From assembly GCA_021018995.1 (NCBI GenBank), contig CM037598.1, positions 46,577,185-46,641,184 on the forward strand: DNA of 64,000 nucleotides. Reading direction: 5' to 3'. The notes under the pieces are model-generated. The model was not told the DNA's origin, ran no database searches, and saw only the letters and a list, made by a program, of their open reading frames with translations. The stretch's first letter is position 1; the number at the start of each line of letters is the position of its first letter. Source of the DNA: Chloranthus sessilifolius. Taxonomy: Eukaryota > Streptophyta > Magnoliopsida > Chloranthales > Chloranthaceae. Of this stretch, positions 1 through 64,000 are shown in pieces. A program made the translations under genes and the position numbers.

Positions 1-1485
1 GTGCAGGACTCAAAGGTGGAGTGGCTAATATGGATGGGTGGCTGGAATGGTGGGTGAAGGTAAGGTAGGGATTGGGTCAATGGTAAAAGGAATGGATAAG
101 GGTATTGATGTGGTGATGGTGGAGATGAATGTTGAAGTGCTGGAAGGTATGGAGACTGGAATGGAAGGTAGGGAAACTAATATGGATGGTGTGATAGAAG
201 GGATGGTGGTGAGGCTAGCCCTCTCAGAGCTGACAGAGGATACAACTAGGACAAATGGGGGCACAAATGGAGTAGCAGATGTGAGTAAAGGATCATAGGA
301 GATTGTTGCAGAGGTTTCAGGTGGAGGTATGGATTTAGTGACAGCTGTAGGGTGAGGCTCTGAGCTCACAGCAGCAAATGGGGCTGCATGTGGAGCTTCC
401 ACCTTAGTATCTGTACTGGACTTGTGTTTACTCTCACCCATGAGAGTCCTACTGGCAGACCAGGCCCTCTTCCCAAAAATTATAGGGGTCACCTTTACCA
501 CTGGCTCATCTACTTCGAACACAAACTCCTTTCTTTTTAACAAGGTCGTGATGAGCCTGCTGTAAGGGAGCCCAGGTAGAGCTTGAGCCTTCCTACACTT
601 GTCATTCACATCCACCATGGCCTCAAACACCAAATGAGCAGCATTTATGAATTAGCCCTTGGAGAAGAAATATAGGGCATCCAATATTGGCACTCTCCTC
701 TCTTAATGGTGTCCACTCACATAGATGTTTTTCCTCAAAATTGAATCAAAGAATTGCATGTTGGGGTGTAAATCTCTTCTCATAATTGACTCCCCAGCCC
801 CCACAATGCCTTGAGTGAGGTGCCTGGCCATTGCTTTGAAGGAGACATTCTTAGCCAGGCCATAGGTTGGATCAAAAACAGAAGGGACTCCCAATGCTAT
901 CCCAATATCTCTATAATCCACCACCATCTACATATGATCAATCAAAATTACAAGGCAGGGCTCAATTGAATCTGGCTTGGTTTGTTTCCTGAGATTCTGA
1001 TACCATAACTTAACCAGCCTTGGGTAAGATATTTCATTCAGTGGGCTCAACATGGGTGTCAAGCCTACCTTCACCAAATAATTCAAAGTGTCCTGACACT
1101 CCTCTACCTTAGAGAAATAGGGGGTGTCAACCATAGTCTCTGAGATCAGACCTAATGCATCCACAAATTCATTGGGTGTGGATCTGAGCAAAGGGACTTC
1201 AGGATCCAATTCAGGGTCAGGCTCAGCCTCAGGAATTTCAGGCACAAGGTTAGGTTGTGTCTCAGGGACCTCCTCAACAATGTCTTCACTGGTTTGAGCC
1301 CTCTTTGATTTCTTGGATTTCTTAGATTTCACAGTTTTCTCAGCCTGGTCCATGACCAATTTTCTCTTTACAAGTGGGGTCTCCTTAGGCTTGGTGGTTT
1401 GCCTAGTGGATTTCCTAGTGCCTTTGGTGGCAGATTTAAAAGGCACTTTGAAAAGATTAGCCAAGATGTCCTCTTGATCAGCCAT
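1..1485 (-). pseudogene. ORF3 of element A (putative plant transposon protein-like), 3' truncated
   Basis: Starts at 1485 (MADQEDILANLF). Residues 1-70 are strongly basic (KSKKSKKSKRA at about 53-63), followed by an acidic Pro/Glu stretch and then a globular region with the motif YPRLVKLWYQN shared with the ORF3 copies of C and E. A stop near 928 breaks the frame; homology continues through GIVGAGESIMRRDLHP (about 760-830) and, in another segment, MVDVNDK, YSRLITTLLKR and a Pro/Ser/Thr-rich tail that runs to the window edge. The globular part resembles the family Pfam calls a putative plant transposon protein (PF20167, from memory, not searched). Function unknown; the basic N-terminus suggests a nuclear, nucleic-acid-binding protein. 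No membrane segment is visible, which argues against an envelope-like role. Confidence 0.75.
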
Positions 1486-1741
1486 TACTCAATCAACACA
1501 ATATCAATCACTACTAATTCAATAACAATTACCACAAAAACCTCTTGAATGCTCAAATGACCCAAACAAACTAAAGATTGAAATACCATGCTTGTAAATC
1601 ACAAAGAGGAGCTGAAGAAAAGCTTACCAGCAGAAACCTAGGGTAAAAGATCTTAAAATGCACAGCATCAAACCAGTTCAGTCCAGATGCAAAGTGTAGC
1701 TTTTGATGAATTGAAGCAATGGGAAAAATAGCCAGGAAGTT

Positions 1742-2026
1742 ACTATAACAACCAGTGAGATAAAGAGAAAAAGCAAAATGGAAAAATCGCTAGAGCAAAT
1801 CTAAAGCGCAAAGAGAAGCTGTCGAATGGAAAAAATGAAGCTGTCGTTAGGTTTAAAGCAGTGGGAAATGACTTTCGACAGGATTGGGGCAAGGTGTCGA
1901 CAGGTTTATGCAACCTGTCGAAGAGTAGAAAATCACTTATCCGCGCGATAGGTGTATGCAATCCGGTCGAAGAGTTCAAAAGACATAAATAATAATTCCA
2001 AGAGGTTCACATACCCTCTCGACAGG
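1742..2026 (-). promoter_or_regulatory. Motif cluster and TATA-like box upstream of element A ORF3
   Basis: Between about 1825 and 2026 the TCGACAGG motif recurs (for example ttcgacaggatt near 1873, tgtcgacaggttt near 1896, cctgtcgaagag near 1915, ctcgacagg at 2018). On the minus strand a TATA-like TATAGTAA (1742-1749) lies about 260 bp before the ORF3 start at 1485, downstream of the cluster in the direction of transcription. The same arrangement is seen ahead of ORF3 in C and H. The TATA-like box is weak; the motif cluster is clear. An internal promoter for ORF3 is an inference. Confidence 0.5.
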
Positions 2027-3119
2027 TGTTGGGATTCTGCCTTGTGTTCAAAAAGGAGTTTAAAATCAGACAATTAAAGAATCTATGGATAGCACACACC
2101 AAGGCAGGCTCACACACAGTCCTGCAAGTATTCAGGGCCTGTTGTAATAAGTTTTAAAAAGGTAAGTAAGAGTTTGTCCCACAGGGAGTAGTGATCTAAA
2201 CCTAAAAGGTGTATAGTAGACCTCCAGATCTGGCTACAAATCTGTTAATTCTAATAAGAAAGAGAGCTTTTCGGGTGTCACTAGATCTAATTTATAGAAC
2301 TGAAATCAAACTAAACTAAGAGATGGAGGAAGATGGATGGTAAAATAAAATATAAAATGGGGAGAAATAGACAGCTAGGGCCTGGTTTTCATTGCAAAAT
2401 AGATCAAGATCTGAGGATATGCAGCCATCCTTCATTTAGCTACAAGCGCAAATGCAAGGTATAAGAATCTGATTTAGACCGATGATTTAGATTGATCTTA
2501 AGGCTATGATCTATCCACTTAAATGGTCACAGATCATCCAATAGATTTCCTCCAATCTGATGGTTTGGATTGATCTTAAGGCAATGATTTATCCACTTAA
2601 ATGGTCACAAATCATCCAATAGATTTCCTCCATTCCGATGGCTTAAATCAGAACAAGATAATCACTACAGATGTTGTGGATGCAAGGCCACAAGCTCAGG
2701 CACCCACAAGCATATCAAACCCAGGGAAATCAGATGGTCATCAAGAGATCTATCAGTTAAGTGGGTGGGCTAGTCCCATCTACACAAATCCGATCAAGAA
2801 TCTAATGGGACCACAAGATCTTTATATTTAATTAAGCTTTAAAATCAATCATTTATTACTTCAAACAAAACAACTTACAATAACTTGTTCCTAGATCTGT
2901 AGTCTATGCATCGATCAACATTTCTTCATGTCGAATTACAATTACAAACTAGATCTAAGCTGCTACCTAGATCTAATCCAACAGGTTGGATTAGAGAGAG
3001 AAGGGGGAAGAGAAAAGGAAAAATAAAACCTAAAACTAAACCTAAATGAGCTAAGGAGAATTCAGGTTATTCCTTTGTTCCTACTTTCCTTGCTGAAGAA
3101 AAATAGCAAAATAGATGGA

Positions 3120-3127
3120 TATTTATA
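3120..3127 (-). promoter_or_regulatory. TATA box of the solo LTR
   Basis: TATAAATA on the minus strand, placed in mid-LTR as expected for the U3/R boundary. Corresponding boxes occur in the other LTRs of the window. Confidence 0.6.
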
Positions 3128-3424
3128 GGTATGCATCGATCCATGTGCCTTGAGTTGCAGCCAATCAGAGAGCAGAGGACTCAATTCTGTTATGCACAAT
3201 TGAGGTGTCTTTATTTTGACCAAGGAAAATTGCATGTGGACTGTTATCCCATGTGCAGAGTTTTGTGCCCAGCTGATGTGTCTTTGCAGCTCTCAAAAAT
3301 GCCCCTGTCGGCCACTGATATTTGCTAATGGAACCCGAGATAAATCTCTAAGATGTGTGGGACATTGGGATGTGTGCCCTAGAAGCATTGGAATCCCCAA
3401 AATGTCCCTAAAGTATGAAATAGA

Positions 3425-3890
3425 TGGCTGGAACCCATGCCTCGATAGGTTGAAGCTTCAGAACTTTACTCTCGACAGGTTCAGGCAACTGTTCGATAGG
3501 TTGGAGCTTCAGAACTTCAATCTTGATAGGTTCAGGCAACTGTTCGATAGGTTCTTTTAACCATTCGACAGGATGCTCGACACGTTCAAACAACCATTCG
3601 ACAGGATGCTCGATAGGTTCATTTTCAGCATCAGAACCTCTCGACAGGTTCTCGATAGGTTCAAACAACCATTCGATAGGTTGCGACAGGTTTAATTTTA
3701 GCCTTTTTTCAGCACTGTAGCTTGATTTCGTCACATACCAACTCGTGGGGTTCAACTGACCACTCGAGAGGTTGGATCTTATCATTTTAAACCACTCAAG
3801 GGGTTGGTTTTCAACATGAACCACTCGTGGGGTTCACTAAATCATGCATTTAAACCACTCGAGTGGTTGCACCAGCCCTCTAAACGGCTC
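3425..3890. repeat. Dispersed TCGACAGGTT motif array in the solo LTR
   Basis: About a dozen copies of (C/T)TCGA(C/T)AGGTT between 3440 and 3690, spaced irregularly by unique sequence, followed by a second variant form (ccactcgtggggttc, cactcgagaggttgg, cactcgagtggttgc) to about 3870. This is not a tandem repeat because the spacers differ. C/T variants at the inner position fit CpG decay or real degeneracy. Lies in U3, upstream (minus strand) of the TATA box. Confidence 0.8.
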
Positions 3891-4416
3891 GAATTCTTCA
3901 AGTTTGTAGTTGTGCTGCTCATGGGCTTCCATCATCAGCTCGAGTAGATGAACTTCAACACTTAAAGTACCCGAGTGCATTAATGTTGTAGCTGTAATAT
4001 GCCACTTGAATTGCTTTGCAGCTGTTTGCATAAAATTCCATGAGGTGCTGATTTGCTGTTGTCTTTCATCAAAGGTGCTGCCTTGCTACAAACACAAAAT
4101 GTTGTATCACTGCATAGCACATTAACCTTTAGGCTGCACCACACTCTCTCTCAGCAGGTCTTCAAGGCCCCCAGAGCATGCTAAAAAGCCCCAATGGTGT
4201 TAACCACCATGGCGCCTTTTCAATAAATCCATCAGCTCCATTGTTAAACACAAAATTCCTTCTTCTTGGCTTCAAAAGCATGGATTGCAGCATTAAGCTT
4301 TTATTTTGATGTTATCTATAAAAACACACTTAAAAGACATTATTAACATGCTCAAAGGTCCATCATAGGTCAGGTTAAGGGTTAGAAAGTGGTATATTTC
4401 AGTGCTCAACAACAGG

Positions 4417-4943
4417 TTCTTTGAACTCAATATACAATCCTCTCGACAGATTCTAGGCTCCAAATAAATCATGTTGAGGAGTTCATAGAACCTCTCGATA
4501 GGTATCCTGAACGTGTCAAGAATTCATCCAAAAGTCTTCAGAACCTGTCAAAATGCTCCCGGATCCTATCTACAACCATTTTACACCTTCAAACCTGTCG
4601 AGAATTAGTTCACACCTCTCGACAGCTTCTAGATCTTGTTGAAAAGTAAAGTGGGAACTCTCAGAACATGTCGATATGTTCATAGAACCTATCGACAGGC
4701 TATATTTTAGTTTAAACAGGCTTGTAATTAATTCCCAGTTCATTTCTCAACAGATCTGACACTCCAACTCAGGTTACTTCACCAATTTGACTCATTATCC
4801 TACCTGAGGTACAGACAGACATGGAAAATTTATGTATAAAGCCACACAGAACTGAAACAAAGACAGAAAAAATTAGAAAATAAATAAATAACCAAACACA
4901 TAATTTATTATACATAGTGTACATTTGTTGAAACTCAATCATG
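4417..4943 (-). other. Remainder of the A pol-ORF3 spacer and pol deletion scar
   Basis: No gene. 4417-4700 holds further motif copies (cctctcgacagattc, cctctcgataggt, cctctcgacagcttc, ctatcgacaggc), which continue the cluster interrupted by the solo LTR. 4760-4943 is T-rich on the minus strand, with short hydrophobic frames; similar T-rich sequence follows integrase in element C. The junction with the protease remnant near 4944 marks loss of about 3 kb of pol. Confidence 0.6.
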
Positions 4944-5530
4944 TCATGGAGGTTCATGATGGCAGATGGTCAGTACAGGCTCCACCATATTTTCATAAAC
5001 ATCACCAATATCGTCACAAAGATCATTACAATGTAGCAGCTTAGGCAAAGCCTCTTTCACAAGCTCATCAGAAACATCAATTAAAAAGAAATCCTCACTA
5101 TCCAAGTGAGGTTGATTGGTTGCATTATAAATATTTAATTTTACCTTCATATTGCCAAATGACACTTGCATTACTCCTAATCTACATTCAATACAAGCAT
5201 TGGCAGTGGCCAAGAAAAGTCTACCTAAAATCACAGGAATGGAGGTGGTACACTTGCTTGGCTCCATATCAAGAACCAGAAAATTTGCTGGATAGAAAAA
5301 TTTGTCAACTCTAACTAAAATATCCTCTATCGTTCCCACAAGCCTCCTTTCAGATCTATCTACTAGTTGTAGCACCACATGTGTGGGCTTTAGTTCTCCC
5401 AAGCCTAACTTCTCATATACAGAATATGAAAGTAAGTTTACGCTAGCTCCCAGATCTAATAAGGCTTTCTCAATAGTATGACCCCAATGATGCAGGGGAT
5501 TGTGGGAACTCCAGGGTCTTGAAGCTTGGT
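4944..5530 (-). pseudogene. Retroviral-type aspartic protease of element A
   Basis: Pepsin-like half-enzyme that would cleave the gag-pol polyprotein. The first catalytic loop DLGAS is encoded at about 5442-5456 with the Asp codon intact (5454-5456), followed by NLLSYSVYEKLGLGELKPTHV and the flap region. The second signature reads ILGRLFLATANACIECR (about 5170-5220), the normal C-terminal ILGRPF-type motif with P changed to L. A single-base loss between the upstream PTIPCIIG segment and the catalytic loop breaks the frame near 5485. The coding region then stops and RT is absent. Orthologous blocks occur in C (33480-34150) and G (62913-63820). Confidence 0.85.
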
Positions 5531-7478
5531 TGGAATTGTACTAGACAGTACTTGGTTCACTTTCTCAGCACAAAAGACCTTCTTGGATAAGCGTATCCTA
5601 GACTGTCTTTTGTAAGTGCACAATTCTTTCAGAAATTTTACATAAGGCTAAAACTTGCTTTATGGCATCAAGTAAAGGCAAGTTGATCTTTACTTGTTTG
5701 AAAGTTTCTATCATCTCCTCAACCTTAGCATTCCCCTTGTCAAAAGGAAAAGCTGCTTTCAATGCATTAGGAAATGACAAATGGGGCACTGTCCTCCCAC
5801 TTGCAGCCTTAGCAAGTTCATCAGATTTTTCTTTATTTTTATTTTCAATTTTTTGTTGGGACACATCACCCCTCTTATTTTTTATATGTTGCTCCTGCTG
5901 CATATTTTCATGGGTTGTTTTTTCATTTGCTGCGTTTTTCTCATCAGGCTCAATACCGACTTCGTTATCCACCGGCTTCCCACTCCTCAAGGTTGTGATA
6001 GATTTGACTTCTTCATGGGAAGGAGTCTCACCAACCATGTATTGACCCTTTGGATTGTTCATGGGCTGACTGGGCAGTCTTCCCTCTTCTCTCCTAGCCA
6101 AAGAATTAGATAGCTGACCAAGGTGGTCCTCTATCTTCTTGATGCTTTGACTGTGGGAGTTAATAATTTGAGATAAAGGGCCTAAATTTTACAGTGAAGC
6201 CAGAACTTGCTCTTCAAATGTGAGGGACCTAGAGAGTGTTGGGGCTGGTGCACTTTGATGCACAGGCTGAACCATTGGTTGGGCCATAGGTTGTTGGTAT
6301 TGGGGCCTTGGAAAATAATTTTGCTGGTATGGCTAGGCATTCCTATAAGGCATGGACTGTTGTGGCTGCAACTACTGCTGGTTTTGAAAATTATCTTGTC
6401 TCCACCTCAAGTTGGGGTGGTTTCTCCAATGATAGCCAGCAGTAGGTTGTTGTCCATAGGACTGAGCAACATTCACATGTTCCATCATAAAATCTGGATA
6501 TTAGGTAGCTGAGGGACATTACTCAAGGAAGTGAGTGGGGGACTAGCATATGACACATGCCTCCTCCACTTTAGCAGCCAATGGAGATTGCATTGTTCCC
6601 ATGAGCTTATCAAACTTTTGGGTCAGGCTGTTCACTTTTCTCTCCAAATCATTATGTCCACTCACCTCATATATTTTTCCTCTGGTAGTATTTTCTCTCA
6701 CCAATCTAGGGGTCTCAGCATATCTTGCCCAGGTCTCCCTTTGCATGAAGTTTTTACTGATGATATCAAATAACTCTCAAGCCTCATCTGTTATCTTGTG
6801 GAGGTATGTACCACCACAAGAAGCATCAACCACATCCCTGCTTTTAGGATCAATACTTTGATAGAAACTTTCGATAAGCTGCCATTCAAGAATTTGGTGA
6901 TGGGGACATTGCTTTAACAGTTCTTTAAATCTTTATCAAGCTTGGTGAAAATCTTCAGTTGGGGCTTGAGCAAATGAGATAATGCACTTCCTCAACTGAC
7001 TTGTTTTGGACATGGGGAAAAACTTGGCCAAAAACTGAAATTGAAGGTCATTCCAGGACTAAAAACTGTGGGTTGGGAGCATTGACAACAAAGTTCTGGC
7101 TCTATCCTTTAGTGAAAAAGGAAAGAGTTTCAACCCGGTTGCTTCCTTCCCCAAACCTATAATATTGATAGTAGTGCAGTCTTAGAAATTTATCTTACTT
7201 ATATGGGTTTTCTTTGCTCAGGCCATGGTATGAGGGTACCATTTGTATGATAAAAGACTTGATCTCATAGTTTCCTTGAACAGCAGGAAATTGAATGCAA
7301 AAGGGGGATTGTACACCCTTGGTGCATTGAATTCCTTTAAAGTCCTAGGTTGCTCACCCATTGCAGGATTATCAACCACAACTACAGGTGTGTGTATGGT
7401 TTGCTTAGGTCTAAGAAGTCTTTCAACTTCAAGATCTAAAGGAGCAATCTCAGGATTAAGAGATCTCCTCCCAAGCAT
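5531..7478 (-). pseudogene. Gag polyprotein of element A
   Basis: Start placed at 7478 (MLGRRSLNPEIAPLDLEVER), matching the MLGKRS and MFGRRT starts in C and G. The capsid-like part covers about 6560-7478 but is broken by several stops and frameshifts. A CCHC zinc knuckle with spacing C-x2-C-x4-H-x4-C is readable around 6516-6560 (CVIC..SPTH....C), with two stop codons inside. The linker to protease (5598-6101) is Lys/Glu-rich and contains the conserved ETFKQVKINLPLLDAIKQV block just before protease. Role: virus-like particle formation and RNA packaging in the cytoplasm. Confidence 0.82.
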
Positions 7479-7795
7479 ACACATAGCAGAAACCAAATTC
7501 AAAACTGAAAATCACAGCACAAAATTCAATCAAAACAATCATAAAATACTCAACTAATGTTACAAATCTATAAAACTACAGATCTAGAAATGTAAGCAGA
7601 GTTAAGAGATGCAAACGTAAGCAATGCTTGTTCTTTCAAGTGATACAGAGCTCCTCTTAGCTCCACAGATCCAGAGATGAAACAGAGTGAAACTACAACA
7701 AAAATTAAAGCAGCAATTAATCAAATACTTAACAGGCAGTTAAAAATCTAATTCGAAAAATGAGAACTTAGATCTATCACTTTTAAAAATACAGA

Positions 7796-7813
7796 TCCCC
7801 GACAATGGCACCA
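7796..7813 (-). other. Primer-binding site (tRNA-Asp) of element A
   Basis: The minus strand reads TGGTGCCATTGTCGGGGA, the complement of the 3' end of plant tRNA-Asp(GTC) apart from three transitions relative to TGGCGCCGTTGCCGGGGA. It lies 9 bp inside the LTR end and fixes the element's orientation. Confidence 0.88.
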
Positions 7814-9001
7814 AAAACTTATTGTTGTCCTTCCTGCCTCACAATTATTATATGATTAAAATAGCAGATTAACTGAACAAATTACAGCAATGTTGAATCC
7901 AGCCAAGCATGTAGTCCTGCAAGAATCAGGGCTGTTACAGTAAGTTTTGATAGGTAAATAAGGGTATGTCCATAGGGAAATGTATCCTAAAGGATGATAA
8001 ATCTCCAGATCTATGGTAGATCTGACACTCTATCCTAATTTAAACTAAACTAAAGCAGGAAAGAGGAGAGGTTTTATGGTTTTGTCACTTTAACTACAGA
8101 CTACAAAAGATAAATGCTATTGATCCAGATCTAATCAAACACAAAGATAAGGGGAGATATAGAAGAGATGAAAATTCAAAAGGGTGAGAACAGCAGCTAG
8201 GGATATTGGTCTCTCACTAAAATCAAAGGAATCAAAGGTAATGTAGAGAACTAATTTGTAACAATCCTCTTTTCTGGCTCTAAGCTTCCCATGCTCCCCT
8301 GAATCCACCAATGGATCAAAGCAATCATGAGGTTAGGATCTGCCCTTCTACTTGATATAATCCTATGTTTATGATCTGCTCTTCTACTGGATACAGTTCA
8401 TCCCCGAGATTACTCCAATCTATTGATCTACCCAGGTTCTCCCGGCAAAAGTGATGTTTAAGAATTCAATCTCCACCAATGGATCATGGAAATCCTGAGG
8501 TTAGGCACTGCCCTTCTATTGGATACAGTCCTAAGTTTATGATCTACCCTTCTACTGGCTACAGTTATTCCCCGGGATTACTCCAATCTATTGATCTTGA
8601 TTGGAACAAGAAAACTATTACAGATGTTATAGATGCCAGGCTATCAGCTCCCCATTTCTGGCTGGCATCCACAGGAGTATCCAATTCAGGGAAATAAAAT
8701 ATGAAAAAGTAAAATATAGATTAGAATCACCTTTAAAACCCATAATTATATTACAAACTTATAATACTATTGTGCCCAGATCTACAATCTGTGTAATATA
8801 CAGTTTCTTATAAACCTTTGAATCTCTCAATTTACAGCTCAAGACCTCACCCTAACTACTGAAAAGAGTTTAGCCACTCATGCTTGGCTAAAGAGAGAAT
8901 GGGAGAAGGAGGAAGGAGGGAAAATTTGGAGGGAAAAATGGATCTCGCCCTAAGCTCTGGTTCTCTCAAACTCTGAATCGTTCTTCTGTATTTTCTTTAA
9001 G

Positions 9002-9009
9002 CTTTTATA
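9002..9009 (-). promoter_or_regulatory. TATA box of the element A LTR
   Basis: TATAAAAG on the minus strand, downstream of the motif array in the direction of transcription. Confidence 0.6.
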
Positions 9010-9269
9010 CTCTCCTCCTCTGTCCCCAGATCCATTTCAGCCAATCAGAGCACAATTTTTTTATGCTAATATGACTGATTTCTCTTCTAGAAGCTCTCTC
9101 TCATTGGCTCTCAACTGGCAAATACATGTGAAGTAGTTAAGGTTTCCATTCGTTCCCAACTATGTGCCAAACATACCCCTAGGGGTCGCTGAAGTGCTTT
9201 AGAACTCGTGCACAGAATTTTGGAAGTGGCAGTTGCTGAAGAAACACGCTGAGAAGTTGCCAAAATGAG

Positions 9270-9890
9270 TGTCGAGAGGTTTAGGGGATCCTCTCAACGG
9301 GTTCTAGATCTGCTTTATGTTCACATCGACAACTTGCATTAGCTTTTGACAGCTTCGCAGACTTCTCGACATGATTGATGTGGCTCTCGATAGGTTTGGA
9401 CACATCTTGACAAGTTAATGAAGATCCTGTCGACAGCTTGGGACAACATCTCAAGAGGTTGATTTAAACTTGTTGATAGGATTGAAGGCTTATTTCTTCA
9501 TTCTGCCTAGTTCTACACTCATCCCCTCGACAGGTTATACTCAGCCTGTCGACAGGTTATACAATCTTCAGTGAAGTGTTCGACAGGTTGGCTCAATCCT
9601 CGCGAGAATGAGCGTTGCTTCAGGTAAGTTGTCGACAGGTTATCTTGTACTGCTCGACAGGTTCAGTTGAACCTCACGATAAGTATCTGGAACCTCTCGA
9701 CTTTCTCTGTACCTTGAAGTATCCTCCCGATAGATCCACGTCTGTACTTCCAACCTCTCGGTAGGTGCTGAAACCTCTCGAGGTCATCATCTTTTCAACT
9801 CAGTACCTCTCAACAGCTTCTTATACACATGTTCAACCTCTCGATTGTTTCATTCCTTGCTCTCAGAACCTCTCGACAACTCTACTTTGT
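9270..9890. repeat. Dispersed TCGACAGGTT motif array in the A LTR
   Basis: At least 15 copies or near copies, for example cctcgacaggttata near 9525, cctgtcgacaggttata near 9545, gttcgacaggttgg near 9578, ttgtcgacaggttatc near 9630 and gctcgacaggttcag near 9653, separated by unrelated spacers of about 10-45 bp. The same core is found in the solo LTR and in the spacer before ORF3. Confidence 0.8.
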
Positions 9891-10181
9891 GCTTCCACAG
9901 TTGGCACACATCTTGGGTGTGATGTTTTTCCTTTATTCAACTCTCAGCAACCCCTTAGTAGGTTCAATCTTTATTCCTTGCAGCTGGACTTGGTCTCAGG
10001 CATTTTCCTGTTGGGTAGCACAGTGCTTCTTAGGCTCTTTTAAGTGAATATCTGCACTAAGCTACAATTTATTGCTTATCTACAAAACACACTTAAAATA
10101 CTTTATTAGTCATCTCAAGGGTTCACCAAAGGTCAGGTTATGAGGTGACAAATGATATTTTTCACTAGTTAATACTTAACA

Positions 10182-10411: not shown

Positions 10412-11921
10412 TGATCGGCTTACTATGTATGTCTAATTAAGTCTTAACCTATTACAAGCGCACAATAAAAATTATAGAGCTAGTATAGGATCGTTCTCAG
10501 GAAAAAGTATTATCTTATTTATATATTTCTATTTTAAAGTTTATATTTATCTTTTAAGGTTCTAAACTACTTGAGAAATATGAATAAAAGAATGGTTTCT
10601 TAATCTAAAGTGCATAAAATAAATCCTAATCCTCCTTCAGATTCAGGTCGTCAATCCCAATCTTCAGCCATTGGATATTTATAAAAATAAATAGTACCGT
10701 TACACCATATCGCAGTCTTCTAGAATTTGGTCATTAATTAAACACTAAAATTCCTTAACATGGATTTAATCTAATCAATAATTTCCTAAAATCTAAGCAT
10801 CAATCAAATTCTAGAAAATTGAAGATGAAAAAGTAAAAACCGTTACACTAATTTGCAAATCTCAACCTGAGTCATTAATTCCAATTAAAACTTGAAGATG
10901 TTTACAAAGCAGTAAATAAAGTAAATAAAATCTAAACTAGAAAGCAAAGTAAATATATCTTTCACCCCTCAGCCGCAGTCATCAATTGCTTCTGAGAAAT
11001 TAGGATATCTACACTAATCTTCAGCACCCAATAGCAGTTGTCAATTGCTCTTAAAAACCTCTGATATCTAATCTACTCTAACTATTTTAAACTACTAATC
11101 GAAAGAAAATCCAACCTCAGTTATCAATTGATGCTGAAATTCTTCGATCCCTTATTTCTACATCGGACTCTTGTATTTATAGATCATAAGGAGTCGGTTT
11201 ACAAAGTCTTCTAATTCTAATAAAAGAAACTACTAAAAGATTCCTAATATGACTCTAATTCCTAATTTTATTCTTCCTTGCTTTCAACTGTAGATGTGCT
11301 TCTAGATTGTTCTCCTTTATTTCAGCAACCGAGATTTCCTAAGAGTTTATCTTCATCAATCTCCTCAGATCCGTGATTCATCAAACTTCTAATTTCAGAG
11401 ATCTTCTAATTCAATGCATGACGGTGATAATCTTCATTCACATGATCAATAGATGTAGCAGCGGAAAAAGCTTTCCACAATCGTAAATTTCGATTGTTCT
11501 TCTTTTCTTAGAGAATCGTAAATCACGATTTCTCATTTTCACACAACTTTCTTTTTGGACGATTTCCTATAATGAATGATTTCTTTTCTTTTATCACTTT
11601 TTACTCCTTTGTCACTTTCTAAAGAATCGTCTTTTGAAGAATCGTAAATTATGATTTCTTAGTTTTCACTTTCTTTTCATCTTCAGCTTTAGCACACATT
11701 CGTAAAGTATGATTTCTTGACTTTCAGCATTGGCGAATCGTCTTCTCTTTGCTCAATCATCTTTTTACTCCTTTTCGAGTTCATTTTGATGAATATTAAC
11801 ACTTTGGCTCGCTTTTATTATTTTTCCTTAATATTTGTATATTGTTAACTTGTTAGTAGCAAACTAAGTCCCAGCATCACTAAGTTAAGGGCGATAAAAT
11901 AGTAAATTTTGTGACTGATCA
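10412..11921 (-). repeat. 3' LTR of element B
   Basis: Plus-strand start TGATCGGCTTAC, end GTGACTGATCA. Minus-strand TATA box TATAAATA at 11174-11181. The segment 10620-11130 contains many 'cgtcaatt/agtcatcaatt' style repeats. Near-identical to 14935-16250 plus 28509-28697 in order and content. Confidence 0.85.
11480..11760. repeat. AATCGTAAATTACGATT motif array in the B LTR
   Basis: Imperfect palindromes built on AATCGT...ACGATT: cacaatcgtaaatttcgatt near 11487, gaatcgtaaatcacgatt near 11513, gacgattt near 11556, gaatcgtcttt near 11626, gaatcgtaaattatgatt near 11639, cgtaaagtatgattt near 11701 and gcgaatcgtcttc near 11732. The partner LTR has the same set at 16010-16245, some decayed to AATCAT. 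Sits in U3, upstream of the minus-strand TATA. Confidence 0.75.
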
Positions 11922-50560: not shown

Positions 50561-51480
50561 ATTTATTTTATTTTTTTTGTTTGGCCATAAAAACAGTAAA
50601 GAAGTTCAAAGGAATTGAATTGATAGATAACAGTCTCTCTCTCCAAAGAAAGGAAAAGCTAGTCTCTAAAGCTCATTGGTTATATAATTTTGAAACTATA
50701 GTCTAAATATTACAGTTTAAATCAATCTATTATTTCAAACATTCAATCTGATACAGTGTTCTTGAAGAGCCAAACATGAATTGTAAGTGTTCTATTTTCT
50801 TATTGTTAAACTTCTACTACAATGGATCGTTAGGTTTTCAGGATTCATAATTTTTCTATCATAATTCACATGTGATGATTAAATAATCCTAATATTTACA
50901 AAACTACAAAACTATTCTAAAATAAGGACTACTAAAAACTGAAACAGAAAGAATTTTTTATTTTTTTTCTGCAAAAATGCTAAAAGTAATGCAAAAAATA
51001 AGGTGTTATTTACAAAATTAAACTACTATATACACAAGTTGTATATTCCCCCCAAACTTAAACTGGACAATGCCCTCATTGGCACAAAAAAATAGGGGAT
51101 ATTGTCAAAATTTCTATTTTATCATAAATTACTTAAAATTACTGATATTACACCGGATGAAAAAAATCTTGCCATAAGAATTTCCCCCAAACTTGAGAAA
51201 AAGTACATCCGACTTAATCTTAGATCATAAGTAACAAAAATGGGAAAGAAAAATAGTAACTATATTAGAAAGTTAGTCAAAGGAAAATTTAATATATCCA
51301 TGGAATATTTACAATGACGTGGAAGGAAAACTATAGATAGAAAGAACTGAAAAATTAAAACTAATTATATGAAGGGTATAAACTTAAAAAAAATCTAGAC
51401 ACACACTATCTATAACACTAGCAGTAACATCTGAGAGAAAAGATGTCTTCAATAAAGATCGGTCATCAGGTTCTAACCAC
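50561..51480 (-). mobile_element. B' internal region fragment
   Basis: Aligns with B 13260-13980: 'tttgaaactatagtctaaat.tt.cagtttaaat', 'cattcaatctgatacagtgtt', the purine tract with hairpin CAATG/CATTG around AGGG (minus strand, 51050-51080), a second purine tract near 51185, and 'aaaaaatctagacacacacta'. The stretch between the LTR part and here is missing. Confidence 0.7.
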
Positions 51481-52121: not shown

Positions 52122-54713
52122 GGGACACTACTGTACCTGAAGGAGGGATTGTTACCCCTACTTACACCCTTGAAGGAGACTGTGTATCCTAGGCTGGTTA
52201 AATTGTGGTACCAAACTTTGAAAAGGAAGGTGGTGGCTGGGAAAGAAGCTATGCTAAAAATTTTGATTGATGATTGGAAAATCACAGTGGATAGCGAGGA
52301 TATTGGGATGGCTTTGAGAGTCCCACACAAATTTGACTCCCCTAGATCTGAGGGAGCACCCAAATGGGTTACATTCAAAGAAATGGCTAAGGAGCTCACC
52401 AATGGAATTGTGGGCTCTGGTGAATCTTTGATGAGACGAGACCTCCAACCCAGTCTCAGATTCATTAATGCTATTTTGAGGGAAAATGTCTATGTCACTG
52501 GGCACCTGCAGGAGAGAAGGCCCGCAGTGGTGGATGCCTTGTACTACTGTTGAAAAGGAAAATTTTTGAATGCACCTCAGTTGATTTTTGAGACAATGGT
52601 GGATATTAATGACAAAGTGCTTAAAAGACAAGCATTTGCTAAAGGAGGTGGGCTGCCTTTTAGCAGGCTCGTTACATGCTTGCTCAAGGCTGGGAATTAT
52701 GTAGTCAAAAGGAATGAGCCAATGGAGAAGTTGACCACAAAAGTAAATGGGAAAAGGGAATGATCCACTAGCCTAACCTTGTTTAGGAAGAGTAAGCCAG
52801 TTGAGATGGAGGAGGCTGAGGAGGTGCCCACCACCATGGCAGCAGATCTTCCTACTGAGATACCCTCATCCATCCCTTCACCTAAATTACCTATCCCATT
52901 ACCCACACCTACACCCACGTTGCTTTTTCCCTTTGTATCAGTCCCTCTTCCAATAGACCCCTCTCCTCCAACCTCTGAACCATTTTTACCTCCACCCACC
53001 ACTCAGGTCTTCCAACCTGAAGTCCTTAAACCTCCTACATTATCAAAGCCTACCCCTACCCTGTCTTCTCCACCCATTGACCAACCCGTTTCTGGCTTCC
53101 CCCTCTCCAATCCCTTCTACATACCCAGGGTTTAGACCAGTTCACCACTACTGGGTTCACTGCCCTCATGACATCCATTGTGGAGGATGTTGCTCATGAG
53201 TACACCCCACTCCCTGACTCCCCACACCCCACTCCTCCTCATTTTAACCATGCACCCTCCTCCCCTTTCCAACCCATTCCAACACCTGTCCCCTCCAAAC
53301 CCATCATGCCTAATTCCCTCACGCAAATTCTCTCTCTACTATAGTGCATTGAATCCCAGTTGACCACCAACACCAACAACCAAGCACTTATGAGCTCCTG
53401 CCTTCAATCCATTCAGTCCACCCTTACTCCATCTCCAACCCCCCAACCTCCTCACACTTCCCCTCTCTCCCCTATTCCTACACCTCTTCATTTATCTCCT
53501 CCATCTTCCCCCATTACTTCACCTTCCACAGCTGCTACCTAGTCTGAGGAGGTAGTAGTCCCTCCATTTTGCCCCATACCTATCCCATCCCCATCTTTTA
53601 CCCCTTCCTCACCCCCAATAGTAGCCACTGAAGCTGTTGTATCATCTATCATCCAACCTCCCACTCTCCCTACACCTGTCTTCCAAGATGCCTCCACCCA
53701 AACTGTTCCATGTGAGGAACTATTTTTCTCCATCCCCTCCTCTTCTTCCACTCCACCCCCTTCTTTGCCCATTATCCTCAGGTCCCCCATCTACATACCC
53801 CCTTACCTCACCCTGCTGTATGTAATGAGGGGCAAACCCTACATCCATCGAGATGTCCTGAGTGGTATGGCTGCCCTCCGAGCTTCCTTGGAAGTCTCCT
53901 ATGAGGAGCGGATTGCTTTCATGGAATTGGAGCAAAGAATCCAGCTCTAGGATATCTCTCAGGGCTGGAAGGAAATCCTGACTTGTTATGAGTCTGCCAA
54001 ACTTCTTGCTGAGGCTCAGACTCGCATTACCGAGTATGAGAAAAAGCATGCTGAGCTTCTCCAGAAAAAATTAACCAATGCTCAGGAGATACTCAAGGCC
54101 AGAAAGGAACTCTCTGAGTCAGAACTGCTTTATGCAGCGAAGAAAATAGATATTCTGGAGAAAAGAATTGCTTCATTAACTTCTCAACCATTTCAACCTA
54201 CCCCTCTTCCTACAGCTCCACGCTCCAACCCTCCTGCCACTCAACCTACTCCTACCCCACCTGTAGATGTTCCCCCCCCCTCCAGCCCAAGATCTTCCTA
54301 CAGTTAAACCTTCCCCCCCACACTCTAAGAGGACTTATACAAAGAGAAAAGTTACTACCAAGAGATCTGTTTCCTCTACTTCTGCTCACAGTAAAGGGAA
54401 GGAACCTGCTACCCAGTCTGAAGAGGTAACAACCACCAAGCCCCCACCCACACATGACACCTCCTCCACCTTACTCACAAAGGAGGACAGAAGGAAAGCT
54501 GCTGCTGCCTTTGGTCTCAATCCTACTACCCTTTTCCTTCCGATTACGATTCGACTCGCCTCCTTCGCTAAGACGCCTGAAACCTTGCGCCGATGGGAGG
54601 CTCCCAAGCAGTCCACCAAGGAGTCCCAACCAAAAAGCAAAGCTCCTTTATCAAAGGACGATTTGAAAATTTTGCAAGATTTATATGATTGGCCTGATGA
54701 TGCTTGTAAATAA
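52122..54713 (+). pseudogene. ORF3 of element E (putative plant transposon protein-like, coiled coil)
   Basis: The basic N-terminus is missing. Reads LLYLKEGLLPLLTPL, YPRLVKLWYQTLKRK, LIDDWKITVDSEDIGMALRVP, GIVGSGESLMRRDLQPSLRF, NVYVTGHLQERRPAVVDALYY (to 52553), then MVDINDKVLKRQ and LPFSRLVTCLLKAGNY. A very Pro-rich linker (52830-53800) is followed by a coiled coil (about 53880-54180: SYEERIAFMELEQRIQL, then EYEKKHAELLQKKLTNAQEIL in another frame), a basic part KRTYTKRKVTTKRSVSS (54318-54370) and the C-terminus DLKILQDLYDWPDDACK. C has KQRKVTAKRST at the equivalent place. At least four breaks. Confidence 0.78.
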
Positions 54714-56570: not shown

Positions 56571-59004
56571 TGTTGTTGTTATTTCTCCAGTGTGAAAAGA
56601 AACAAAGATGGATTCAACACATCTGAAAGAAATCAAGACCTACAAGATACAGGGCCTGTTGTAGCAAGTTTTAATAAGTAAGAGTTTGTCCCACAGGGAA
56701 AATGGTCTAAAGCTCCAAAGGAGCCATCTTTAGTAGGCCCTCCAGATCTGATTACAGATCTTGCAATCTTAAATGGAAGGGGATTTAAGGTCACTATTAT
56801 TTAAATCCTATGGTAACCTAATGCCTAAACTACAGAAATGGTTGAGAAGAATGATGGAGTGTGAGAAAATAAATATAAAAAGGGTGAGAAGTAAGCTATT
56901 AGGTACAGATTTGATGGGTTTTATAATTCAGACTCAGATATGCTGCTATAGAAGTCTTGTCCAATGGCTACATTATCACCACAGAGGAGAAAGGATCCAA
57001 CTCACCCCTGTGCCATGATCCAATCCCTTATGGCTATAGCCTGTCCACTCAAATGGTCACAGACTATCCAATAGGGGAACCACAGTCCATAGATGGGTCA
57101 GAACATGTTTATCATTGTAGGCACTACTTCATCCAGGCTACCAGCTCAAGAATTCATAGAAACCTCAACCTCTAAAGTTCTGTGTGTGGGGCATAAGCCT
57201 GCATATGTGCACTAGCTTGGACACACAGGACCAGCAAGAGTTTGAGTACTCGCTTTAGATCTAGCTGTTCACTGCTTTAGAGAGACAGCAGTGATCCAGT
57301 CACAAGCCTACAATCTCTATAGCCAGATCAGATCTACCATCTGATGGTGGGTCTATACAAATACAGGGGAGTCTGTCTCTGCACAATCTCTCATAGGGCT
57401 ATAAGCACAAGTGCAGAGAAGAAGAATCTATCTTAGATCTGTGGATTGGCCTCACCCTAGGGCTATAACCTGTCCACTTAAATGGCCACAGATTATGCAC
57501 TGAGGCTATCCTCCTCACAAAGGTTTGAGATAAAACAAGTAGATTACTACCATCACCATGTTCACAAGGCTACCAGCTCAGGCTCCCATGGGGATTAAGA
57601 TTTAGTGGATCCTGTGGTGGAGCATAGGCCTGCGTATGTGCACTAGCCTGGACACACAGGTCACTTGGATCTGAGTAAATCCTTAAAAATAATCCTCCAT
57701 TGCTTACAATATAACTTAGCGATGGAGGATCTCAAGGCAGCAGCCTTGTACAGAACAACCCTCAAACATCAATCCCATACATGTATAACATCCTATTATA
57801 AAACTTCATTAAAACTGTTCCAAATAGACATACAAAGGCATAGCCAGCAAGTGTTGGGCTATGGAGAGAAGAAAAAGGAAAAAGATGCTGCCTAAACCCT
57901 AACCTTAGCCTACTGGAACTCTACAACCGATTCAAGAAGATAGGAGGAATTCAGTCCCCCACCTCCTCCCTTAAACCTAAACTAGGCTTAAGCTTATATA
58001 GCAGTCGATTGTGGGAGCATTAGGGTTAGGAAAACCCCAATTTTAATGATGCAAATGTGGCCCATTTCTGTTCCTTGGATGCCTCAGGGCGTGTGCATGG
58101 AGATTGGAGCATTGGAGTGCATGCCCTAGTTGCTGAAAGTTCTCAGACTGCCCCTACAGAAGTGGGGGAAAGTTAAGATCTCGAGCCTCACTAGGTAGCA
58201 ATGGTTTCCAAGTCTTGTCACATGATAGAGTGGTCGTCACGGGATTGAATTGGCTTGAAGCTCCTACAGTCGCGGGATAGATAATTTGGTCATCGCGGGA
58301 ATGCTCTGGTCGTCACGGGATAGGTACTTTGGTCATCACAGGAATGCTCTAGTCGTCGCGGGATTGCGCTTTCCATTTGAGTGATGCGGGAATCGCGCAC
58401 ATAGTTCGTTCCTTAGTGAATCTTGTGAGGATCCCCATGAAGAAGTAATGTGCATCGGCCTCTGGATTCTGCGAGCAGTCCCCTGAAGATCTGCATCCCT
58501 CGGCCACTGCATGACAGCTGCATGAAGAAGTGCCTGGAGCTCTCTCTCCTCAGCTTGTCTGAGTGAATTGTGCGAGGATTAAATACTCCTCTCTTGAGCT
58601 ACGCAAGACTATGCTACTGCTTACAACTAAGCCTCGTGAGAACTACGCGAAGTCTACTTCTCAAGCCATTCTGTCATTAATCTGCGTGAGAACAGCGCGA
58701 GCAATTGGTGTGCTGCCTTGAAAAACTTGCGACAACTGTGCGAAGCATTTTTCTCTGAGGCCCACTTTGGCATTCACTGTGTACATCCAGGTGTGTTCTA
58801 CCTTGGTGTTTCTTTCCTCTGTGAATGGGTTACCAGTTGCTTGGAGTTCTGGTGCAAAAGTAGGCTTCTTAGCAAGGTTAGGGCCTTATCTACAGCTACT
58901 GCTTATTACCTACAAATTGGTCTTAACACACATTTATTAAATGACTAAGGGTATAACAGAGGTTAAGTTAAGGGGTGAAAAGTGGTACTTTTCAGGACTT
59001 AACA
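56571..59004 (-). mobile_element. Solo LTR F (C-related family)
   Basis: 2434 bp, TGTTGTTGTT...GGACTTAACA, flanked by perfect duplications CAGTC (56566-56570 and 59005-59009). Reverse complement is collinear with the C LTR from its start to the 'ggccctgtatcttg' segment; the last about 65 bp (U5 end) are unrelated to C, so F is a sister family. TATA box TATATAAG on the minus strand (57993-58000). TCGCGGG motif array at about 58195-58720. Confidence 0.9.
58195..58720. repeat. TCGCGGG motif array in F
   Basis: gtcgtcacgggattg, cagtcgcgggatag, gtcatcgcgggaatgc, gtcgtcacgggatag, gtcgtcgcgggattgc, tgatgcgggaatcgcgc, cctcgtgagaac and acagcgcgagc. Here the reverse complement of the C motif predominates, since F is inverted. 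Confidence 0.75.
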
Positions 59005-59009
59005 CAGTC

Positions 59010-59370
59010 ATTGTGCAGAAATCCACGCTAAAATGCTCCATAAGAAGGTCTAGCTCTCACCACAACTCTGACCCAACTATGGCACACAGAAGGGCCCCAT
59101 ACCAATGACCACTTGGGGCATGCAGCAATAGTAAGGCAGCGTTGAAAAAGGAAAAACAGGCTGAGAACAACCTGTCGATAGGATCTGAAAGCTGAAAAAG
59201 GAAGAAATCATGAAGATGGGGAGAATTCGATAAGATCCATAACCTATCGCGTAGTCGGAAACAACAAGGGAGAATCTTATCGAATGGTTGCCTGAGCTTG
59301 ATCAGAACCTATCGAAAAGTTTGAGAACCTGTCGATAGGAGCCAGAAGAGAACCTATCAAAACCTATGAG
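59010..59370 (+). repeat. 3' LTR of element E, continued
   Basis: Carries its own motif, near CCTATCGATAGG: acctgtcgatagg (59170), cctatcgcgtag (59241), cttatcgaatgg (59276), cctatcgaaaag (59308), cctgtcgatagg (59327) and cctatcaaaacc (59352). Cut at 59370 by G. Confidence 0.65.
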
Positions 59371-59639
59371 TGTTGACAAGTGAAAAATACCATTTTTTCA
59401 CCCCTAAACTTAAGTCTTAATAGACCTTTGAGAGAACTAAATAACTGTTTTGAGTGCCTATGTTGCAGCTAACAAGAAAGACAGGCTTAACCATAAAAGC
59501 AGCTTAAAAGTGCCAAAAAGATGACAATCCATGGCAATCCAAAGGAAGGAAGTGAAGAAACAACCTCATCAGCTGCTGAAAGATCTAAATTGAAGAGGCA
59601 AAGACCTATAAGAGAAGCAGGGAACAATTCGAATAGAGA

Positions 59640-59910
59640 AATGCACTACAGAGTTCTTTTCGCAAAGAACCTGCACTGTTCGTAAAGAACCTGGAACTCT
59701 GCGAAAAGGACTAAAGCTCCAGGCTTAGCGTTCGAAGAGCATTTGAACTCTTCGAAAAGAAGATTGAACTTTGCGAAAAGGAGAAGACACAATTCGAAGA
59801 GCATCTGAACTCTGCGAAAAGAAGATTGAACATTGTGAAAAGAGCTTCAGAAGCCACAGCACTTTGCGAAAAGGCCCCTAAGCTCTGCGAAAAGGTATTT
59901 TGAAGAATCA
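59640..59910. repeat. CTCTGCGAAAAG motif array in the G LTR
   Basis: Ten or so copies in 260 bp: cttttcgcaaagaacc, gttcgtaaagaacc, ctctgcgaaaagga, gttcgaagagc, ctcttcgaaaagaag, ctttgcgaaaagg, attcgaagagc, ctctgcgaaaagaag, attgtgaaaagagc, ctttgcgaaaagg, ctctgcgaaaagg. Irregular spacers. Confidence 0.8.
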
Positions 59911-60245: not shown

Positions 60246-60253
60246 TATAAATA
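60246..60253 (+). promoter_or_regulatory. TATA box of the G LTR
   Basis: TATAAATA in gctataaatagacg, downstream of the motif array. Confidence 0.7.
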
Positions 60254-61418: not shown

Positions 61419-62912
61419 ATGTTTGGTAGGAGGACTCACCGAGAGATTCTCCCATTGAATTTAGAAGTTGAAAGGCTACTACGAACCAAGCAAACAACAC
61501 AGAATTCTGCTACTATGGGTGAAGAACCTCGACTTTTGAGGGATTACTTTGCACCTGGTGCTTATAATTCCCTCTTTTGCATTCAATTTCCTATTGTGGA
61601 AGGAAATTATGAGATCAAATCCTCAACTATCCAAATGCTCCCTTCCTTCCATGGGTTGAGTAAGGAAGACCCATACAAACATGTGGATGAATTCTTGGCT
61701 CTTTGCACCACATTCAACATAGCTGGACTGGGTCCAGAAGCAACCAAGCTTAGGCTCTTTCCTTTTTCATTAAAGGATAAAGCTAGAGCATGGTTATCCA
61801 TGTTAGCACCAAATAGTATCACTTCATGGAATGATTTACAATGTCAATTTTTAGCCAAATATTTCCCAATGTCTAAAACTAGCCAATTGAGACAAAGTAT
61901 CATTTCATTTTCTCAAAATTCAACTGAAACTTTCCATGAAGCATGGGAAAGATTCAAGGAACTGTTAAGGCAATGTCCTCATCATCAAATTCCTAGGTGG
62001 CAGCTGGTTCAAAGCTTCTATCAAGGAATTGATCAAAAAGGCAAAAATATGGTGGATGCTTCCTGTGGAGGCACTTACTTACAAAAAATAGTTGAAGAGG
62101 TTTGGGACTTATTTGAAGTGATTGGTGAGAATTCAACTCAGCTGGAATCTTTGTCAAGAGAAATTGAAAATCTGGCTAGGTTGAACAATCACCAACCCAC
62201 AAAAGGGAAGATCTATGAGGTGAATGAGTTGGAAAGAAAAATGGATAATCTAACCACAAAATTTGATAGATTGATGGACTCACTTAAAACTCCAAATGTT
62301 TCAAGAGTAGAGGAGGCATGTCTGATATGCTCCCTACTCATTCATTGATCAATGTCCCTGCATCACAGTTCCCAAATTTAATGGTGGAACAAGCTCATCT
62401 TGCTCAATCATTTGGACGAGATGCGATCAAATGAATATCCATGGAGACACCCCAACTTGAGGTGGAACCAAGGGAATTACCAATCCCAACGGCAACAACC
62501 AAAGAATCAAATGCCTTTCAACCTGCATTTTATCGGTCAAACCAAACTTTTAGAACCCATTCCACAACAACTGCGGACAATGATTCAAACCCCCTCCAGG
62601 TCCCCTTCTTTTAAAGATCAAGTCTTAAATTCACTGCAGAATTTAGGATCTTTAACTTAGACTGTGAACTTTCACAGCCAGAGCATAAAGAAGATTGAAG
62701 AAACATTGGGACAGCTTTCGAATACCTTGGCAAAAAGAGAGGAAGGAAAGTTACCCACCAACCTTTGAACAATCCCAAAGGGCAGTTCATGGTTGGAGAA
62801 GCTTCTAATTCACATGAAGAAGTAAAACTGTCACCACTTTGAGAAGTGGAAAAGCGATAGATAACAAAGTAGGCCAAGAAGAAAGAAATGAGGAAGAGGA
62901 TAAAGATATGCG
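61419..62912 (+). pseudogene. Gag of element G
   Basis: MFGRRTHREILPLNLEVER start, then MGEEPRLLRDYFAPGAYN, IQMLPSFHGLSKEDPYKHVDEF, LSMLAPNSITSWNDL and QCPHHQIPRWQLVQSFYQGID; open to 62348. The zinc knuckle begins CLIC (about 62318) with His and Cys following over a frameshift near 62345. 62349-62912 is the linker in broken frames, with REEGKL and KGQFMVGEAS-like pieces and HSQSIKKIEETLGQLSNTLAKRE. Confidence 0.88.
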
Positions 62913-63820
62913 ATGAAGCAGCATAGTGATAGCAGTAGGGTTGCTGATGTACCTCAGAAAAACCAAAAACATGAAAAACAAAAAATTAAAAAAATTTCTG
63001 AAAATACTTCTAAAGCTGTAGATGAAAGATTGGTTCCTCATTTACCATTTCCACATGCAATGAAATCAGATTCCTTTGATAAAGGGAGCACAAAAATAGA
63101 TGATATGATGGAGACTTTCAAGCAAGTAAAGATAAATTTACCTTTGCTTGAGGCAATCAAACAAATTCCAGCATATGCAACATTTCTGAAAGATGTGTGC
63201 ACTCACAAAAGACAATCTAGGATACAGTTGTCCAAGAAGGTCTTTGCTGTGGAAAGAATTAGTCAGGTGTTATCCATTGCTACACCTCCCAAACTTCAAG
63301 ATCCTGGAATCCCCACAATCCCTTGCATTATTGGGGAACACACCATTGAAAAGGCTTTATTAGATCTGGTGTTAGTGTCAACCTACTTCCATATTCTATA
63401 TGAGAAGCTAGGTTTGGGAGAATTAAAACCCACTCATGTGGTGTTACAACTAGCGTGCATGATCCGAAAGAAAGCCAGAGGGATAATTGAAGATGTATTG
63501 GTAGGAGTAGATAAATTTTTCTATCCTCCTCATTTTCTACTTTTAGATATGCGACCAACCAAAAGCAAAACTTCCATCCTTATTTTGGGAAGACCATTCT
63601 CGGCTACAAAGAAATGCTTGCATTCAATGCAGTGTCCGGTATTATGGAAGTCTCATTTGGAAACATGAAGGTAAAATTAAATGTTTATAATGCATCACAC
63701 AATTCATCTCAAGAATGTTTTCATGTTGATCTATTGGACGAACTTGTGGAAGGAACTTTACAACAATTTCTAGGTGAAGACTTCACCACGGATATCAAAG
63801 ATGCTTGGGGATATCTTTGA
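62913..63820 (+). pseudogene. Protease of element G
   Basis: METFKQVKINLPLLEAIKQ, then PTIPCIIGEHTIEKALLDL. The DLGAS-type catalytic loop is disrupted: after Asp-Leu one base is missing, and a second small deletion near 63400 restores the frame at YEKLGLGELKPTHV. ILGRPFSATKKC at 63585-63620 is followed by another frameshift into GIMEVSFGNMKVKLNVYNAS, ending at 63820. 63821-64000 is the linker towards RT. Confidence 0.82.
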
Positions 63821-64000
63821 AAAGAAGCAAGTTGTATCTCCAATTCTGAGGAAATTAATGTTGTGCAAGGAACTCTTAAACAATCAGCAAGTTTTTCTTC
63901 TTGGAAACCTGCTACTCTCCCCCTTCCACAAACATCTAAGGTACCTTTGATACCTTCTTTTCTCAGCCCACCTGATTTATAACTAAAGAAGCTACCCGAA

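Follow-up and report, generated by a model that had tools for sequence, protein, structure and literature searches.

Family-specific palindrome arrays in the long terminal repeats and upstream of an extra open reading frame in Ty3/gypsy elements of Chloranthus sessilifolius

Self-encoded regulators that act on family-specific arrays of sites are known from DNA transposons and viruses. In CACTA (En/Spm) elements, the element-encoded protein TnpA binds dispersed, CpG-containing 12-bp subterminal motifs of its own family and affects methylation; these sites lie in the termini of a DNA transposon, not in the U3 region of a long terminal repeat (LTR). Foamy viruses, which are vertebrate retroviruses, carry the gene for Tas (Bel1) near the 3′ end and have few sites for it. 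Here we describe arrays of short motifs in a 64,000-nucleotide stretch of Chloranthus sessilifolius DNA (hereafter the window; contig CM037598.1, positions 46,577,185 to 46,641,184), which is made up of heavily nested Ty3/gypsy retrotransposons and which we judge from these elements to be plant nuclear DNA. The arrays lie in the LTRs and, in most elements that could be tested, again just upstream of an extra open reading frame (ORF), the aORF.

The targets of VANC in the VANDAL transposons of Arabidopsis are element-specific short motifs repeated in the non-coding DNA of the element, in introns and upstream regions; the motif diverges between related families, its density matters and the arrays grow by tandem repeats (PMC5735166, PMC10398659). 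VANDALs are DNA transposons, whereas the elements described here are LTR retrotransposons in which binding is only predicted, and the 9-base VANDAL motif, YAGTATTAY, has no CpG (PMC5735166); the strings ‘palindrom’, ‘helical’ and ‘spacer’ have no occurrences in the text of that paper. Tas acts at the LTR and at an internal promoter (PMC8670036). EBNA1 has multiple 18-bp palindromes at oriP, arranged in 30-bp units in the family of repeats (FR) and with a critical 3-bp gap, which puts the centres 21 bp apart, in the dyad symmetry element (DS); the EBNA1-bound FR is an enhancer (PMC3820569). EBNA1 belongs to a DNA virus and serves replication and segregation, and the analogy is confined to site layout.

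Plant Ty3 elements such as Athila, Grande (gene23) and Retand (TRP28) carry an aORF between pol and the 3′ LTR. The product of Grande gene23 is nuclear and the gene has its own promoter, aORFs being reviewed as of unknown function (PMC7264820). DNA binding has been predicted for TRP28, for which a role in regulation is proposed (PMC11963269); the TRP28 aORFs are antisense, whereas those described here are in sense with gag–pol. Nuclear signals are reported in one Athila and one Tekay aORF (PMC11728184), and a 2026 paper, having just described VANC, leaves open whether Athila and Tork have ORFs that act on methylation (PMC12844716). The available portions of PMC7264820 and PMC11963269 describe no cis motif common to the LTR and the aORF promoter, and our searches of an open-access library, which lacks most subscription papers, turned up no description of motif arrays common to both; this is no proof of absence. 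That such arrays occur in LTR retrotransposons of plants, helically phased and paired with a matching array upstream of the aORF, appears to be new.

Motif arrays in the LTRs and upstream of the aORF

Most elements in the window are Athila-like, a lineage name that we assume (primer site TGGCACCACTGCTGGGGA at 31228); E3 we take to be Tekay-like from its integrase and initiator-tRNA primer site. Arrays are named by motif type: A in element E1 and the solo LTR S1, A2 for a variant of A (CCTATCGATAGG), C (C/F in an earlier note on this DNA) in E4 and the solo LTR S2, E in E3, and G, B and I; S3 is the LTR called H in that note. The Athila-like LTRs are alike over their first 100–150 bp; further on, only E4 and S2 align throughout, and the others give short, weak matches. 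The arrays and aORF pieces are as follows.

928–1488 (−): intact N-terminal piece of the E1 aORF, a lysine-rich stretch and then the conserved core; more pieces at 703–927 and 25–651
1816–2028 (−): E1 internal A-type array, block 2, separated from block 1 by S1
2027–4411 (−): solo LTR S1; target-site duplication ACAGG within a motif copy; own A-type array at 3436–3949; TATA at 3127
4437–4701 (−): E1 internal A-type array, block 1, between gag–protease and the aORF
9243–9964 (−): U3 of the E1 LTR, about 24 A-type palindromes (AACCTSTCGASAGGTT) at steps of mostly 20–23, 30–32 and 52–54 bp; TATA at 9009
11479–11714 (−): U3 of the B 3′ LTR, AATCGTAAATTACGATT sites; copy in the B 5′ LTR at 16015–16233
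17788–18070 (−): U3 of the E3 3′ LTR, 11 E-type palindromes (AATCGATTAATCGATT)
20084–20509 (−): intact N-terminal piece of the E3 aORF
20718–20884 (−): E3 internal E-type sites upstream of the aORF, three with at most one mismatch to ATCGATTAATCGAT; TATA-like CTATAAGT adjoins the last site
27675–27917 (−): U3 of the E3 5′ LTR, 9 E-type palindromes
28978–29511 (+): U3 of the E4 5′ LTR, C-type sites (ctCGCGag)
37416–38045 (+): E4 internal C-type cluster, in the interval between pol and the aORF
38351–38806 (+): core piece of the E4 aORF; a coiled-coil-like (by eye), basic C-terminal piece at 39385–40251
43492–44062 (+): U3 of the E4 3′ LTR, C-type sites; TATA at 44245
45722–46165 (+): I-family U3 cluster (GCGCAATTGG); TATA at 46181
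49454–49828 (+): U3 cluster of S3 (H), GCGTATGTATTACATACGC; TATA at 50109
52122–52553 (+): core piece of the A2 aORF, with a weak PF20167 match; the region upstream is missing in the window
58183–58748 (−): U3 of the solo LTR S2, C-type sites; TATA at 58000
59169–59366 (+): U3 of the A2 LTR, 6 A2-type sites (AACCTATCGATAGGTT)
59623–59896 (+): U3 of the G LTR, 12 G-type sites (CTTTTCGAAAAG) at steps of 31, 20, 21, 31, 20, 21, 21, 20, 21, 31 and 21 bp; TATA at 60246

The earlier note held that at least eight LTR families each have their own repeated motif, ahead of the TATA box where one is visible, and this observation is confirmed. All eight motifs outnumber those in 100 of 100 dinucleotide shuffles of U3, and in 19 of 19 region tests with the motifs of the note the observed count was reached by none of 100 shuffles, at mismatch limits of our own choosing; TATA lies downstream of the cluster in 8 of the 10 LTRs tested. 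A motif-blind scan placed 36 of 318 intervals above all 60 shuffles, and the motif clusters account for 30 of these 36. De novo palindromic expectation maximization recovered the A, C, E, G and I motifs; those of B and A2 were not significant, and neither were the controls save 1 of 14 (R–U5 of S1, with AGATCT). A de novo search free of any symmetry constraint yielded a consensus with symmetry in the LTR and internal regions of E1, in S1, in G and in both LTRs of E3, and none in A2, the E3 internal region, E4 (both LTRs and internal region), S2, I, S3 and B, where the symmetry score is too crude for use. A family-specific short motif at high density in the non-coding DNA of the element is also the arrangement seen with VANC. 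As for AGATCT, a repeated palindrome without CpG, the window has 64 copies where 20.5 are expected, with the highest density in the R–U5 of S1 (8 in 1.08 kb); examples of Athila-like R–U5 lie at 2031–3110 and 56636–57980.

The motif of the LTR recurs inside the element. E1, E3 and E4 have the aORF between pol (in E1, gag–protease) and the 3′ LTR, and E4, G and the elements labelled N2 and N3 show the layout of Athila/Tat-type aORFs, with the ORF between pol and the 3′ LTR. Just upstream of the aORF, matrices trained on the element’s own LTR find 18 matches in E1 (0.5 in shuffles), 10 in E4 (1.6) and 5 in E3 (1.4); the E3 and E4 LTR matrices show no excess over background in the internal regions of the other two elements. 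Across 324 kb, the LTR motif is clustered again just upstream of the aORF in 9 of 11 testable aORF elements, among them 6 of the 8 that lie outside the window or run out of it, and a matching cluster precedes the aORF in 11 of 12 copies of the A2 family, taken from 12 contigs that were retrieved once the prediction was on record. Judged by motif agreement in those 9 of 11 elements, the same putative sites stand at the LTR and upstream of a candidate transactivator gene, a foamy-virus-like arrangement. Spacing orders differ between the LTR array and the internal array of one element, so the two are not simple copies of each other. In E1 (1–10177), only about 240 bp separate gag and protease from the internal array, which leaves no room for reverse transcriptase or integrase; the layout is non-autonomous, with the aORF and both arrays retained.

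Phasing, conservation and growth of the arrays

Neighbouring A- and G-type sites mostly lie 20–23, 29–33 or 50–54 bp apart, centre to centre (near 21, 31 and 52). Within the window, phasing (R) reaches 0.99 at 10.32 bp for G and 0.86 at 10.30 bp for E3 once one and two outlying site calls, respectively, are dropped (0.94 and 0.84 with all calls); it is 0.64 at 10.56 bp in the E1 LTR and 0.66 at 10.40 bp in S1 across the whole array, and the E1 internal array has an absolute phase of 0.74 (offset 2390). CpG-to-CpG distances, which involve no site calling, peak at 10.3–10.6 bp in 9 of the 14 regions with motifs (two LTR pairs included) and in 0 of 3 controls. Among these nine, R at 10.5 bp has P < 0.05 in five (E1 LTR, S1, G, A2 and the E3 3′ LTR) and P of 0.05–0.064 in four; the E1 internal region lacks a 10.5-bp peak in its CpG distances, although its called sites have one. 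In new clusters outside the window, 113 A and G spacings (one of less than 15 bp dropped) give R = 0.76 with a best period of 10.3 (P = 0.0001 against jittered spacings), and spacings upstream of A2-family aORFs peak at 9.9 (R = 0.73), with R = 0.68 at 10.5 (P = 0.0001, n = 106). Phasing of E is less clear, its best period being ambiguous (16.7 in the window, 6.8 in new clusters), and the N2 3′ LTR is not phased (R = 0.39). The layout of EBNA1 sites at oriP, with palindromes at helically phased distances, is clearly present in A and G, less so in E, and not seen in C, I, H and B.

The earlier note had named two outcomes that would refute it. Motif counts exceed those in shuffles, as given above, and motifs are conserved above their spacers for substitutions in all three families tested (A2, B, and E4 versus S2), though not for gaps in B. 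When one A2 copy served to call the sites and the other ten to measure them, the difference was 0.150 in motif columns versus 0.225 in spacers (transversions, 0.047 versus 0.085), and motif columns had the lower value with each of the 11 copies used in turn. An alternative test took as motif columns those with calls in four or more of the 11 copies, a choice biased towards conserved columns; the contrast in gaps that it gave (0.003 versus 0.172) is only 0.007 versus 0.014 in the fairer test, whereas the substitution contrast did not shrink. At eight B loci, found through the motif itself and with that site masked, aligned motif columns changed at about half the spacer substitution rate (56/313 versus 810/2350) and held more gaps (95/408 versus 314/2664). 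Between E4 and S2, transversions in the CpG core number 3 in 108 ungapped columns versus 49 in 462 (P = 0.009 for the narrowest core; 0.10 and 0.03 for wider cores).

CpG has nearly been lost from gag–pol and R–U5 of the Athila-like elements and is kept in the clusters (odds of 7.2 in E4, 6.3 in E1, 10.8 in S2, 3.1 in S1, 2.9 in G and 1.9 in B). In the E4 LTR pair, 37 of 65 CpG sites in U3 have turned into TG or CA; we infer that dead copies lose their motif CpGs, which selection or hypomethylation had preserved in the lineage until insertion. Local duplications occur in S1 (51 bp × 2.2 and 33 bp × 1.9), E3 (20 bp × 4.8), G (21 bp × 4.9), S2 (43 bp × 2.2), H (159 bp × 2) and E1 (22 bp × 2.1), and spacers within a family are slightly more alike than shuffled ones. 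Local duplication has helped the arrays to grow, as is likewise reported for VANC targets (PMC5735166). Phasing in some types, substitution slower than in spacers, CpG retention and a motif assembled twice per element with different spacing orders together support selection for multiple putative binding sites, which the earlier note had judged the more likely reading.

The aORF product and its possible role

A core (YPRLV..FY) is common to the aORFs of E1, A2, E4 and E3, with 33–58% identity to A2. The N terminus is lysine-rich in E1 and E4, and the C-terminal part is, by eye, coiled-coil-like and basic in E4 and A2. Motif type tracks aORF clade: core identity is 0.61 within types (12 pairs) versus 0.37 between them (43 pairs; permutation P = 0.0002), with A2 and N6 typed by LTR and E3 left out. 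For the aORF pieces scanned, fragments of 45–288 residues, DUF1985 (the VANC family) is not among the matches listed at E up to 10; protein searches with two pieces found no relative at E of 0.001 and 0.01; a tblastn search of the aORF against viral contigs gave no hit, and the LTR-start pattern occurs 0 times in viral and genome contigs.

Within the E4 aORF, a 36-bp tandem repeat (40262–40352) encodes a repeated peptide of 12 residues, not unlike the tandem peptides found in the variable regions of VANC (PMC5735166). A further short ORF of E4 (...FPIKFYPIWEDPP...) lies from 41158 onward (+), and a similar one seems to recur at about 14340 (−) in the internal region of the otherwise non-coding B element (that copy read by eye). 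A second B-like LTR, at 48015–49031 and about 79% identical to B, is seemingly interrupted by the S3 LTR, the two together covering 48015–50882 (borders by eye).

We consider it probable that the aORF product is a dimeric DNA-binding protein that acts on the LTR of its own family and on its own promoter, in a self-amplifying, family-specific loop. Such a nuclear protein would bind the palindromes as a dimer, to which their symmetry points; the phasing of A, G and E suggests that adjacent dimers would line up along the same face of the helix; and the presence of arrays at two locations suggests that the protein would control the aORF itself as well as the promoter of the genomic RNA, both of which it may switch on or keep unsilenced. 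Protein and sites would then diverge together, and families would stay independent. That the binder is element-encoded and VANC-like, as the earlier note had suggested, is plausible from the sequence and becomes more concrete with a candidate aORF that has its own motif cluster; by analogy, a transactivator resembling Tas or EBNA1 would fit equally well. CpG retention may slightly favour protection from methylation over activation, although as a pointer to methylation loss it is suggestive only. The interpretation in the earlier note is partly supported, selection for multiple putative sites being the supported part.

Several results weigh against a self-encoded binder. The 3′ LTR of E1 was not found, and its prediction in the left flank failed, there being no A-type cluster of at least five sites in L019 and L020. 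N6 (aORF at −33683) has no matching cluster upstream of the aORF, though there is a C-type LTR cluster some 4 kb downstream; N7 (77957; L010:3139–3732, −), Tekay-like and with an aORF, has no motif in common with an LTR, and has either another site type or a lost array; and one of the 12 A2-family copies, L045, has no cluster. De novo motif searches upstream of the aORF were not significant in N2, N3, N5 and E3, and a matrix trained on the E4 internal region found no clusters in the E4 LTR. C-type sites are not phased in new clusters (R = 0.25, P = 0.16), I, H and B have no 10.5-bp signal, and the E3 clusters lack CpG enrichment (odds 0.8). Pfam gave only a sub-threshold PF20167 match for one piece (E = 0.014; 15.7 bits against a cut-off of 45), and no known Athila/Tat aORF domain (PF03078, PF04195 or PF20167) above its cut-off; AlphaFold2 gave no confident fold for the A2 aORF core (five sequences; predicted local distance difference test score, 33.5). 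The agreement of motif type with aORF clade may simply reflect shared ancestry of whole elements. Matrix matches above all 40 shuffles also cross the types: the E1 LTR matrix in the E4 5′ LTR (4) and E4 internal region (6; 1.3 in shuffles), the E1 internal matrix in the E4 internal region (7) and E4 pol (13), the S1 matrix in the E4 internal region (8), the A2 matrix in E4 pol (11) and G (5), the E3 matrix in G gag (7), the E4 matrix in the E1 LTR (6) and E4 R–U5 (5), and the G matrix in the E1 internal region (3), the E4 internal region (4), A2 (3) and G gag (7). A-type matrices match the E4 internal and G clusters as well as their own, so specificity is graded.

The strongest alternative is that each family gathered sites for a different host transcription factor, doing so in parallel in U3 and ahead of the aORF. 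Host factor sites are well known in the U3 of plant LTRs, and the H, I and B clusters have no demonstrated aORF in the window. We nonetheless think this unlikely: motif type tracks aORF clade, homologous LTRs with the same first 100–150 bp bear different motifs, and host promoters do not usually have long, helically phased arrays of such 16-bp palindromes. Very unlikely, in our view, is that the arrays are self-directed integration targets or chromatin tethers at which the aORF protein holds incoming cDNA or the integration complex to old copies. The elements are heavily nested, and S1 inserted into a motif copy of the E1 internal array, which it split (ACAGG); a target duplication is readable in only 2 of 5 insertions, however (S1 exact, E3 with one mismatch), that of E3 does not lie, by eye, within a motif, and a position ahead of TATA boxes and the aORF better fits transcription. 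The local duplications and slightly similar spacers noted above would be expected if the arrays were a passive product of tandem duplication with diverged spacers, but we hold this to be highly improbable, given that the motifs change more slowly than the spacers, recur elsewhere in the element in another spacing order, keep the helical phase at 31- and 52-bp steps that are not multiples of 21, and retain CpG where the rest of the Athila-like elements does not. Least probable of all are nucleosome-positioning or structural DNA signals that involve no specific protein, for although rotational nucleosome signals share the period of about 10.3 bp and phase is held over hundreds of bases, sixteen-base family-specific palindromes are far more informative than dinucleotide signals, and there are C-type clusters that show no phasing.

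A substantial share of large plant genomes consists of LTR retrotransposons, and how their families escape silencing is an open question. We give about even chances to the broader proposal that plant Ty3 aORFs are self-encoded, family-specific regulators that coat phased palindrome arrays in their own LTR and promoter and keep both active or unmethylated, a device that would be used by Athila-like and perhaps Tekay-like lineages and is apparently abundant in this genome. If this is true, LTR retrotransposons would have their own counterpart of VANC and of the viral EBNA1 and Tas circuits. With each aORF paired to a target site that can be read from the sequence, the question is open to direct test, with one predicted protein, one predicted site and related families as specificity controls. 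Such elements would also offer a natural set of co-evolving protein–site pairs and a reason for the turnover of families in plant genomes.

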